This document shows positions 43,595 to 46,528 of a stretch of DNA of 64,000 nt, piece by piece (positions within the stretch are counted from its first letter, which is position 1; each line of letters opens with the position of its first letter). The notes under the pieces were generated by a model. The model searched no databases and was not told the origin of the DNA. It saw only the letters and a list, made by a program, of their open reading frames with translations. This stretch comes from Halogranum gelatinilyticum (lineage in GTDB: Archaea > Halobacteriota > Halobacteria > Halobacteriales > Haloferacaceae): the NCBI RefSeq assembly GCF_900103715.1, contig NZ_FNHL01000001.1, forward strand, positions 372,001 to 436,000. The letters run 5' to 3'. The translations under genes were made by a program, and so were the position numbers.

Positions 43595-44269
43595 ATGCGA
43601 ACAAGAGACGTGTGTCGTGGTGACGAAGCACGCACCCTCGACGACGTGCTCTCACGGCTGAAACGCCGCGGCTGCGCGCTCTTGGTGACCGGCTGTGTGG
43701 GCGACGACGTGTCCGCACGGCTGACCCGACGGCTCCTCGGCAGCCCGGCCGAACAGCGCCGCCGACTGCTCGTTCTCTCGGGTGCCGACGCCGACCGCGT
43801 CGCGACCAGACTCCCACCGGGCGTCGCCGCCTCCGACCCCGACGTCCGCGTCGTCGACGTGACGGCGACGGACCGCTCGACCGCCGTCGACACCCCCCGA
43901 GGCGCGCCGTCCGACGCGTCCGGCCCGTCCGCCATCGAGGTGTTGCAGGTGTTCACCGACGCGGTCGACGCGCTCGACGACGGCGACCTCGACCCGTCGG
44001 AACTCCGTGTCGCCTTCGACCCGCTGTGTCCCCTGCTCGGACGGGACGACGAGGCGAGTGCCCGGTTTCTGCGTGTCGCGACGGCACTCGTCCGCGACGC
44101 GACCGGCATGGGCCACTTTCATCTCCCCGTCGCCGACGACAGTCCGCGCATCGACGCGCTGGGCCACTGGTTCGACGCACGCATCGAACTGCGCCACCGC
44201 GACGGTCTCGCCCCCGAACAGCGGTGGCATCTCCCGGAGTACGGTACGACCCCGTGGGTGAGATTATGA
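43595..44269 (+). CDS. DUF7504-like protein, degraded NTPase fold (first gene of CHAT operon)
   Basis: A 224-residue protein. It resembles the haloarchaeal family I recall as DUF7504. ALLVTGCVGDDVSARLTRRL sits where a P-loop would be, but the GK[ST] of Walker A is missing, and VRVVDVTATD follows like a Walker B strand. LRVAFDPLCPLLGRDDEASA and GHFHLPVADDSPRIDALGHW are further beta-alpha units, as in RecA/KaiC-like folds. Therefore a nucleotide-binding fold that has lost catalysis is the likely reading. It is co-transcribed with the CHAT gene. ATG 43595 follows the TATA box by 27 bases. Confidence 0.55.
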   Translation: MRTRDVCRGDEARTLDDVLSRLKRRGCALLVTGCVGDDVSARLTRRLLGSPAEQRRRLLVLSGADADRVATRLPPGVAASDPDVRVVDVTATDRSTAVDTPRGAPSDASGPSAIEVLQVFTDAVDALDDGDLDPSELRVAFDPLCPLLGRDDEASARFLRVATALVRDATGMGHFHLPVADDSPRIDALGHWFDARIELRHRDGLAPEQRWHLPEYGTTPWVRL

Positions 44270-44279
44270 GGTGGTCGGC
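44268..44279 (+). promoter_or_regulatory. Shine-Dalgarno site that sets the CHAT gene start
   Basis: gaggtgg at 44268-44274 overlaps the DUF7504 stop and ends five bases before GTG 44280. GTG 44271 lies inside the site itself, so 44280 is the likely start codon. Confidence 0.6.
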
Positions 44280-46400
44280 GTGACGGTCCGGTTCGAGCAG
44301 GTGAGTGCCACCCGTCTCCGCGTCGTCGACGACATCGAACACACCTCGTTCGAGGTCGGGACGTTCGAGGAGACCCGGCCGGAGACGACGGCCGGAGAGC
44401 GGTTCCGACTGCCGGTCGACGCGGCCGTCGGGGTCGAAACCTCCGGGCTCCAACTCCCGAAGCTGATGGGCGTCGTCGTCCGCAACGGCGACGGGGAGAC
44501 GGTCGCCCAGTCGTCGAACCGAGAACCGGTGGTCCTCCCCCGTGGACGCTACACGCTCGAAGTCAACACCGCACCGATGAAGCTCTACATCGCCGTCGAC
44601 GCACCGCTCAGAGTCACCTACGGGACCGGCTCTACGGACATCAGGTTCGACAGATCTGCTGCGGTCGCACTCGGCGCGCGGTCGTTCCACGAACAGCCCG
44701 CCGGGACGGTGACGACGACGATGGAGCCGGAGACGTTGATGCGGGCGGTCGCGACGCTGGGGTCGTCGCTGCAGACCATCTCGCCCGAACGGTCGTTTCC
44801 GACGCTTCGGGGCCATCCGCCGTTGCTCCGGGTCGGCGACGAGTTCGACGTCCCCGACGGTATCGAGCGCCCCGACACGGAGCTGACGCTCGTCCTCCCG
44901 CGCGACCCGGCGGCCGTCTTCGCGGCGACGCCGGTGGCGTACTATCTCGGTGCCGACGTGGTGCCGGGCGAGACGCCACGGCTCGACGGGCCCGGCTGGT
45001 CACATCAGCTGACGGCCGACACCGACCTCGAAACCGGCCTCGCGCGGACGCTCAGACAGACCTTCTTCCTCGACTGCCTCACCCGGACCGAGGGCTACTA
45101 TCCGGTCGACCTCCACGAACGGGAGGCGGTCGAGGCGACGCTCCCGCTCGACTTCGGCGACCTCTACGGCCGACCGATGGCCGACCAGGTCGGCGCGTAT
45201 CTCGACGTCCCGTTCGCCGACGTCGAGCCGTTGCTCCCCGAGTGGAACCTCACGACGGACGTCTGGCCCACGGCCGACAACGTCGAGATGCTGCCGTTCC
45301 TCGCGAAAGACCTCTCGCTCGTCCGGTGTCCGAGCGAGCGGTCGAGCGACTCGCTTCGCGCCGAGCCGAAGGCGGTGAGCGACTTCTTCCGGGCGGCCGT
45401 GCCGGAGGACGGGCTGGCCCGCGGTGGCACGTCGAGCGACGACTCCTCGGAGGCGTCCCGAGGAACCGAGCGGCCCCCCGTCGACATCGTCACGCCCGAG
45501 CCGACGGAGACGGTCGAACACGCGTGGGTCGGCGACGGATACCCGCTCGGCGCGAGCAAGTCGACGCCCGAGAGCTACCGTCGGCGTCTCGACCGCGAGG
45601 CGACCGACCGCACGAGCATCGAGATCACCGTCGTCTGCAACGACCCGCAGATGCGCGACGAGGACGTCGTCGCCGACCTCTACGGCTGCCGTGAGCTGCT
45701 GGATTTCGAGGTCGAAGTCCACTACGACCTGACGCGAGACCAGCTGGTACAGGTCTTGGAGACGCCGACGAACTTCCTCCACTACATCGGCCACGTCGAC
45801 GAGCGCGGACTGCAGTGCGCCGACGGCTATCTCGACGTGACGACCCTGGAGTGCGACGTTGCAGTCGACTCCTTTCTCCTGAACGCCTGCCAGTCACACG
45901 AGCAAGGCGAGGCACTCCTGGACCGCGGGAGCTACGCGGGCGTCGTGACGCTCTCGGATGTGGCGAACGCCTCGGCGACGGCCTTCGGCCAGACCATCGC
46001 CCGGCTGTTGAACTGCGGGTTCACCTTCCGGTCGGCGTTGTCGGTGGCGCAGGAGGCGCACGTCGTCGGCTACCGGTACACCGTGTTGGGTGACGGCGGG
46101 ATGTCGTTGTGTCAGGCGGAGAGCGGTGTGCTAGTCGTGCCAACGGTTGAGCCGTGTAGTGAAGACGGCTATCTCTCTGTACAATTTGACTTCTTCCCAT
46201 CGAGGCAGCACGAAGTTGGCTCACTCGTCATTCCGTATCTACCGAATCAATCGAAATACTACCTCGCTACTGGTAAGAGCGAACGCAAGTGTTTGCGTCT
46301 CTCCGACTTCCGTGAGTTTCTGGAACTGGAGACGACTCCCGTCTGGACCTCGTCGGGTCTCCGTTGGAGTTCCGAACTGGAACTCTCTGAACTCGACTAA
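44280..46400 (+). CDS. CHAT-domain (caspase-fold) protease-like protein
   Basis: A 706-residue protein. The first ~130 residues are beta-rich (VSATRLRVVDDIEHTSFEVG). A mixed middle part follows to about 350, then a disordered linker with SSDDSSEASRGTERPP. The CHAT domain spans about 445-610: IEITVVCNDPQMRDEDVVAD, then FLHYIGHVDERG with the catalytic His505, and FLLNACQSHEQG with Cys537. Both catalytic residues are present. About 616-706 are distinct, and the DNA there (46125-46300) drops to roughly 47-53% GC against over 70% in the core. I start at GTG 44280 because of the gaggtgg site. Substrate and trigger are unknown. Confidence 0.75.
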   Translation: MTVRFEQVSATRLRVVDDIEHTSFEVGTFEETRPETTAGERFRLPVDAAVGVETSGLQLPKLMGVVVRNGDGETVAQSSNREPVVLPRGRYTLEVNTAPMKLYIAVDAPLRVTYGTGSTDIRFDRSAAVALGARSFHEQPAGTVTTTMEPETLMRAVATLGSSLQTISPERSFPTLRGHPPLLRVGDEFDVPDGIERPDTELTLVLPRDPAAVFAATPVAYYLGADVVPGETPRLDGPGWSHQLTADTDLETGLARTLRQTFFLDCLTRTEGYYPVDLHEREAVEATLPLDFGDLYGRPMADQVGAYLDVPFADVEPLLPEWNLTTDVWPTADNVEMLPFLAKDLSLVRCPSERSSDSLRAEPKAVSDFFRAAVPEDGLARGGTSSDDSSEASRGTERPPVDIVTPEPTETVEHAWVGDGYPLGASKSTPESYRRRLDREATDRTSIEITVVCNDPQMRDEDVVADLYGCRELLDFEVEVHYDLTRDQLVQVLETPTNFLHYIGHVDERGLQCADGYLDVTTLECDVAVDSFLLNACQSHEQGEALLDRGSYAGVVTLSDVANASATAFGQTIARLLNCGFTFRSALSVAQEAHVVGYRYTVLGDGGMSLCQAESGVLVVPTVEPCSEDGYLSVQFDFFPSRQHEVGSLVIPYLPNQSKYYLATGKSERKCLRLSDFREFLELETTPVWTSSGLRWSSELELSELD

Positions 46401-46528
46401 GGACCGCGGATACTGCCTGCATTGTTCGCCACGACACTGCCTGCCTGCGATAACAGGAGGAGCGTCGTGAACAGGACGCCGGTCAGTCGTGGGTTCTGCT
46501 TCAGGTAGGTTGCCATTTCTTGCTTCAT
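46397..46528 (-). CDS. DUF7503-like 43-residue hydrophobic peptide
   Basis: Codes MKQEMATYLKQNPRLTGVLF, then TTLLLLSQAGSVVANNAGSI and RGP. A basic start, one hydrophobic stretch (LTGVLFTTLLLLSQAGSVVA) and VVA before Asn-Asn fit either a membrane peptide or a signal peptide with a tiny mature part. I recall such peptides as DUF7503, found beside DUF7504 and CHAT proteins in haloarchaea. ATG 46516 is an in-frame alternative. Its stop (46397-46399) overlaps the CHAT stop from the opposite strand. Its own promoter would lie in the AT-rich stretch 46540-46580. Confidence 0.6.
   Translation of the reverse strand: MKQEMATYLKQNPRLTGVLFTTLLLLSQAGSVVANNAGSIRGP

Follow-up and report, generated by a model that had tools for sequence, protein, structure and literature searches.

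A hypervariable cassette spans a caspase-fold protease and its convergent DUF7503 peptide in haloarchaea: a candidate recognition module

The agr and comQXPA systems encode a peptide precursor with a conserved leader and a variable mature part that co-varies with an adjacent protein, and their alleles are exchanged as cassettes. AgrB or ComQ process the AgrD or ComX precursors. CHAT proteases in CRISPR systems act as switch-activated proteases, and gingipain R and separase cleave after Arg. To our knowledge, archaeal cell-to-cell recognition is almost unknown at the gene level. Here we describe a locus of Halogranum gelatinilyticum that lies in a 64,000-nucleotide stretch of contig NZ_FNHL01000001.1 (positions 372,001 to 436,000, forward strand; hereafter the window). 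A CHAT-like protease of clan CD is encoded there head-on to a 43-residue peptide of the DUF7503 family. The last ~90 residues of the protease and the adjacent 9-residue tail of the peptide make up a hypervariable cassette that is flanked by two conserved stretches and is reported here for the first time. On balance, we read the co-variation within this cassette as the mark of a lock-and-key recognition system not described before, in which the tail and the protease would bind each other.

The locus is like agr and comQXPA in its peptide, with a conserved leader and a variable C-terminal part, and in the adjacent protein segment that co-varies with it, here between species. It differs from them in that no gene is homologous, the partner is a soluble caspase-fold protein, no polymorphic histidine kinase is adjacent and the host is an archaeon. 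The clan CD fold and the His/Cys dyad are common to this protease and to Craspase TPR-CHAT/Csx29 and SAVED-CHAT, and so presumably is switch-activated proteolysis. Unlike those CRISPR proteases, the protease has a 43-residue partner and a variable C-terminal domain, no TPR or SAVED domain was recognised in a search of the full-length protein, and PADLOC gave no match. The closest folds are those of gingipain and separase (Z 20.5 and 17.6 over ~220-240 residues), but identity to them is ~15%, the accessory domains are different and a peptide is linked only here. The literature searched, with most subscription papers and preprints lying outside it, holds no mention of DUF7503 and no paper on both the CHAT domain and haloarchaea. 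The first-pass annotation of this DNA had proposed a possible undescribed system, and we found no published description in that literature. It had called three open reading frames at this locus, and all three are where it placed them. The features of the protease and the peptide are given below.

44280..46400, + strand: CHAT-like clan CD cysteine protease of 706 amino acids, assigned by fold comparison, with a GTG start at 44280 (an alternative GTG at 44271 would give 709 amino acids)
45555..46130, + strand: conserved catalytic domain of the protease, residues 426-617, with His505 and Cys537 invariant in 72/72 homologues
45792-45794, + strand: codon of His505
45888-45890, + strand: codon of Cys537
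46131..46397, + strand: hypervariable C-terminal domain of the protease, residues 618-706, the proposed recognition domain, with synonymous divergence (pS) of ~0.8 against 0.35-0.4 elsewhere in the gene and a drop in GC content at third codon positions (GC3)
46397..46528, - strand: convergent DUF7503 peptide gene, 43 amino acids (Pfam PF24335, E 4e-21), whose stop overlaps the protease stop by 4 nucleotides
46427..46528, - strand: conserved peptide leader, residues 1-34, with an NPR motif, a hydrophobic core and a small-x-small site, from alignments of 160 distinct peptides
46400..46426, - strand: hypervariable peptide tail NNAGSIRGP, residues 35-43, with a near-invariant Gly-Pro end, from tail comparison
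46131..46426, no strand: whole variable cassette, made of the protease C-terminal domain and the peptide tail, defined by divergence and allele coupling

The cassette differs from its surroundings in both composition and divergence. All comparisons used one genome per species. Across 87 protease genes, GC3 falls from ~0.80 to ~0.61 in the last ~90 codons, and in the window protease it falls from 0.90 to 0.57 in the C-terminal domain. Along the Halorubrum protease, pS is ~0.35, rising to ~0.8 in the C-terminal domain; for the peptide it is 0.78 in the tail and 0.23 in the leader. Identity of the aligned DNA drops sharply near residue 612-618, stays at ~0.5 through the tail, is ~0.9 in the leader and declines again past the peptide gene. 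The same C-terminal rise in pS is found in Haloarcula and Haloferax, and scaffold residues inside the variable domain remain fixed. In Halorubrum, C-terminal domain identity is not tied to the identity of the remaining protein (Spearman 0.10), and among 71 Halorubrum pairs with a remainder more than 90% identical, 54 have C-terminal domains less than 50% identical. The raised pS means that cassette alleles are older than their flanks, or are replaced independently of them, or mutate faster; it would not follow from positive selection on the protein alone. Cassette alleles common to different genera are essentially absent. Two apparent cases in the large genera turned out to be same-genus loci under other identifiers, and the cases involving the window genus are weak, so we do not claim recent transfer across genera.

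The effect follows the peptide. The control is a set of 14 Haloarcula genomes that carry both a peptide-paired and a peptide-less protease. On crossing into the cassette of the paired protease, pS rises abruptly from 0.39 to 0.76 and GC3 drops from 0.77 to 0.43. In the paired protease, the C-terminal domain has a pS of 0.76, a nonsynonymous divergence (pN) of 0.337 and a GC3 of 0.43, whereas its other regions have a pS of 0.33-0.43, a pN of 0.04-0.08 and a GC3 of 0.76-0.79. The same domain of the peptide-less paralogue in the same genomes has a pS of 0.36, a pN of 0.049 and a GC3 of 0.83. Because the peptide-less paralogue lacks the effect, hypervariability is tied to having a peptide partner and not to the fold or the genome. 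An earlier control, which used the peptide-less paralogues of another genus (g23), was not clean, since the paired set there mixes deep lineages, and it was replaced by the Haloarcula control.

The two parts of the cassette vary together. Halorubrum pairs whose catalytic-domain DNA is at least 93% identical form two classes by the DNA identity of the C-terminal domain, which is 0.8-0.9 in 10 pairs and below 0.6 in 24, with one pair between these values. In the listed pairs, tails differ at 0-2 positions where the domain is 0.8-0.9 identical and mostly at 3-5 where it is below 0.6, with one exception (domain identity 0.58, a single tail difference). Among the Haloferax pairs listed, tails are identical in all four in which the C-terminal domain DNA reaches an identity of 0.88 or more, and differ at one or two residues in the rest. 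Partial Mantel tests of the tail against the C-terminal domain, given the rest of the protein, returned p values of 0.002, 0.0005 and 0.0005. Because the two adjoin, what the coupling shows is that the tail and the domain are co-inherited; contact between them is putative. The way in which the cassette varies points to specificity of recognition, not to a conserved substrate.

The protease and the peptide are also found together across haloarchaea. A search of the genome collection with the single protease sequence gave no matches, and an alignment-based search gave 537 relatives. The protease family is present in 179/194 Halobacteria genomes and in 58/65 genera, and DUF7503 scores over its cut-off in 158/188 Halobacteria genomes. 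No protease-less genome with DUF7503 over the cut-off is among the matches listed. A protease is next door at all 33 fetched DUF7503 loci over the cut-off. Conversely, the peptide is found at 73 of 80 named loci that were fetched by the protease alone, convergent in 73/73 and mostly at a spacing of 4-30 nucleotides. The window genome has three proteases of the family, each with a convergent DUF7503 or DUF7503-like gene directly downstream. Co-occurrence, together with the co-variation of tail and C-terminal domain, strongly supports the protease and its convergent peptide as the core unit. The first-pass annotation had noticed a tiny hydrophobic peptide adjoining the protease, and this linkage is conserved far beyond chance. 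In several cases (L117, L118, L120 and L123), tandem protease paralogues lie within a few kilobases, with one peptide match between or beside them. Single haloarchaeal strains also carry protease copies on several large plasmids (e.g., NZ_CP119810-NZ_CP119812 and NZ_CP085337), and thus several alleles can coexist in one cell. The plasmid records annotate the family mostly as "hypothetical", with one "caspase family" and one "CHAT domain-containing" entry. Outside Halobacteria, a phylum-wide sample held only distant protease relatives, in four genomes of one family (L158-L161 in genomes G201, G210, G219 and G228), with no detectable peptide.

The DUF7503 open reading frame matches its Pfam model at 74.8 bits (cut-off 27) and is protein-coding by its codon pattern. 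Linked peptides are 39-48 amino acids long. Among 160 distinct DUF7503 peptides, the motif [HN]P[RK] is present in 158, a small-x-small site in all 160 and the Gly-Pro end in 151, and the hydrophobic core resembles G[VA]LFT..LLLSQAG. The tail that follows the small-x-small site is about nine residues long, and 147 distinct 9-residue tails occur in the set; an example from the Haloferax genus is GNTGVIYGP. In the leader, pN/pS across 30 Halorubrum species is 0.20; over the last three residues it is 0.06. The leader resembles a signal peptide, and the basic residues ahead of its hydrophobic core suggest a peptide with its N-terminus inside and its C-terminus outside. The leader pS of 0.23 in Halorubrum, below that of the protease core, suggests that the RNA or DNA is constrained or that the leader is used as a recombination arm. 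A longer-tailed DUF7503-like class, with HPR, a hydrophobic core, a tail of ~15-25 residues and a GP end, lies beside another protease paralogue (L079 / L003 in the window genome, G000:C2:112576-114591; also L170, L173 and L182). At G012:C1:486534-486796, two tandem DUF7503 genes with equal scores accompany one protease, and the peptide may have been duplicated there.

The first-pass annotation had assigned the protease a CHAT (caspase-fold) domain with a His505/Cys537 pair. The dyad and the fold hold, but the Pfam CHAT model (PF12770) matches the window protease at 14.0 bits and its best paralogue at 19.8 bits, both below the gathering cut-off of 24. A search of PDB sequences with the protease profile found no match, and the fold assignment came from structure comparison. 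A model built from 72 aligned homologues (mean predicted local distance difference test score, pLDDT, 90.6) matches gingipain RgpB (Z 20.5), separase (17.6), SAVED-CHAT (17.3) and Craspase CHAT (~14) over residues 321-650. With the Pfam match below threshold, it is this modelled fold that settles the family as clan CD (gingipain/separase/CHAT fold). Besides the dyad, N454, M458, E461 and other residues are invariant in the homologues. Position 560 is acidic in 62/72; judging by CHAT and separase, we place it in the S1 pocket. The predicted fold and the invariant His/Cys dyad indicate that the protein is very probably an active clan CD peptidase. No TPR model matched the full-length protein in the Pfam search, and its N-terminal ~135 residues are predicted to be all-beta.

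The reading that we think probable is a two-gene recognition module, in which the C-terminal domain is specific for the tail of the head-on DUF7503 peptide and gates the protease. The physical binding, gating, export, processing and downstream role that we infer for this module would be as follows. A cytoplasmic caspase-fold protease would carry a C-terminal recognition domain for its cognate peptide tail. The tail and the domain would be inherited and exchanged as one cassette of ~300 nucleotides; the convergent orientation would bring the two specificity pieces together, with the catalytic domain and the peptide leader serving as recombination arms. Processing at the small-x-small site would yield a peptide of 8-9 residues with Gly-Pro at its end, NNAGSIRGP at this locus. 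The peptide may be exported and re-imported, retained in the membrane, or met by the protease before export. Binding of the cognate tail would switch the protease on or off, and the cell would respond to its own peptide allele, as in self-recognition or to a pheromone-like signal. Relay or restraint of the signal would plausibly fall to DUF7504 and, in certain genera, to a HalX response regulator. A stronger form, to which we give distinctly less than even weight, is a pherotype-like system of archaea, in which a secreted Gly-Pro nonapeptide would be read by the variable domain of a caspase-fold protease, itself both receptor and effector inside the cell, and the alleles exchanged as a single cassette.

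Several points weigh against the recognition module. The tail and the C-terminal domain adjoin on the chromosome, so their co-variation could reflect linkage alone. The variation is seen between species only. A tail outside the cell would have to be re-imported, or bound before export, to reach a cytoplasmic protease. A peptide is not detectable at about 7 of the 80 loci, nor at any of the Haloplanus (g14) loci seen. Divergent peptides were sought beside the peptide-less proteases; this brought up the long-tail class only, and none at Haloplanus or at the non-haloarchaeal relatives.

An unlikely alternative, though the one that survives best, is that the protease is a peptide-processing enzyme like AgrB or ComQ. 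Its C-terminal domain would dock the tail, its catalytic site would cleave the precursor, in the simplest case after the near-invariant Arg/Lys of [HN]P[RK], and the receptor would lie elsewhere. The near-universal motif, the mostly acidic position 560 and the Arg specificity of the closest folds, gingipain R and separase, all fit such an enzyme. However, any signal peptide would be expected to have a basic residue ahead of its hydrophobic core, there is no polymorphic receptor gene next to the pair and one peptide (L130) has Gln at the motif site. We hold it to be improbable that the locus is a death or defence module along the lines put forward in the first-pass annotation, in which a trigger activates the protease, the hydrophobic peptide is cut or released as a membrane effector and the variability reflects conflict with viruses or inhibitors. 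CHAT proteases of CRISPR systems work in this way, the fold here matches theirs, the peptide is hydrophobic and hypervariability is typical of conflict systems. Yet near-universality in haloarchaea is unusual among defence genes, and it is the soluble tail that varies and the hydrophobic part that is conserved. No PADLOC model matched any of the three locus proteins, and a scan of viral contigs confirmed no CHAT protease relative, which goes against the anti-viral role that the first-pass annotation had raised. NCBIfam models gave no match to the three proteins either. A gasdermin-protease pair was also considered and rejected, since a partner of 39-48 amino acids is too small for a gasdermin fold. 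Nor do we give much credence to a reading in which the cassette pattern arises incidentally, through recombination or mutation localised to an AT-rich junction of convergent genes; the tail and the C-terminal domain need not touch, and the pair would be a housekeeping protease with a small membrane regulator. The two variable pieces are contiguous and synonymous sites are affected as much as the protein, but scaffold residues of the C-terminal domain are invariant amid the variation, the Gly-Pro end is under strong purifying selection (pN/pS 0.06), conservation is high in the leader beyond the tail and the peptide-less paralogue is free of the effect.

The third gene of the locus lies directly upstream of the protease.

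43595..44269, + strand: DUF7504 protein of 224 amino acids, a pseudo-KaiC (Pfam PF24336, E 2e-47)

It matches the DUF7504 model at 162.3 bits (cut-off 27). The first-pass annotation saw in it an NTPase-like fold without GK[ST], and this is borne out. The structure model (pLDDT 88) has KaiC and RecA as its top PDB matches (E ~3e-7), and the P-loop position reads VTGCVGDD, without the Walker A GK[ST], which is also missing from aligned DUF7504 homologues beside other CHAT genes. The protein is thus predicted to have a KaiC/RecA-like fold with a degenerate P-loop. DUF7504 is found near 33/61 and 38/80 protease loci, in varying gene order, but at none of the Halorubrum protease loci examined. It is an optional partner of the protease, present at about half of the loci. 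Of the three genes called at the locus, DUF7504 is thus not an obligatory member, and the sensor role that the first-pass annotation gave it is not supported, as it is missing from about half of the loci, those of Halorubrum included. The DUF7504 family is broader than this association, since the window genome has ten of its genes over the cut-off. A response-regulator cluster adjoins 18/61 loci; its representative is HalX-type (PF08663, E 3e-25) and a few members are other receiver proteins. Among the 80 named loci, a HalX regulator adjoins 11. In several genera (L082, L084, L091, L093, L317, L356 and L365) it comes after the peptide gene, in the same orientation, and in others (L098, L100, L104 and L137) DUF7504 and the regulator follow on the opposite strand. 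No histidine kinase family recurs beside the 61 loci, where the recurring neighbours are DUF7504 and, at some, the HalX regulator.

Two activities described in Haloferax were compared with these genes. Haloferax volcanii has a strong caspase-like activity that cuts after Asp and whose gene is unassigned (PMC3615174). Both this activity and our protease are haloarchaeal and of caspase type, and each of the 15 genomes sampled from the genus identified as Haloferax has one match to the protease family. The link is weakened because the putative S1 pocket is acidic here, which argues for a basic P1 residue. The second is a density signal of at most 3 kDa that involves DdfA and CirA, the latter KaiC-like; the signal can be extracted with ethyl acetate and is insensitive to proteinase K, and DdfA has a HalOD1 domain (PMC12240190, PMC10869688). 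We considered the DUF7503 peptide and the protease as the quorum-sensing factors of H. volcanii and rejected them on the HalOD1 domain of DdfA and on these two properties of the signal. DdfA/CirA quorum sensing is probably a different system.

The module is present in most haloarchaea, including the genetically tractable Haloferax, and it predicts both an exact peptide and its recognition domain. As the haloarchaeal caspase-like activity is still without a gene, the protease family may also be of interest as a candidate to test. If the tail does not gate the protease, there is still a hypervariable cassette under specific selection to be explained. If it does, caspase-fold proteases would be linked to polymorphic self-recognition in Archaea, and if the pherotype-like form is true, haloarchaea would have a caspase-based system of kin or mate recognition.

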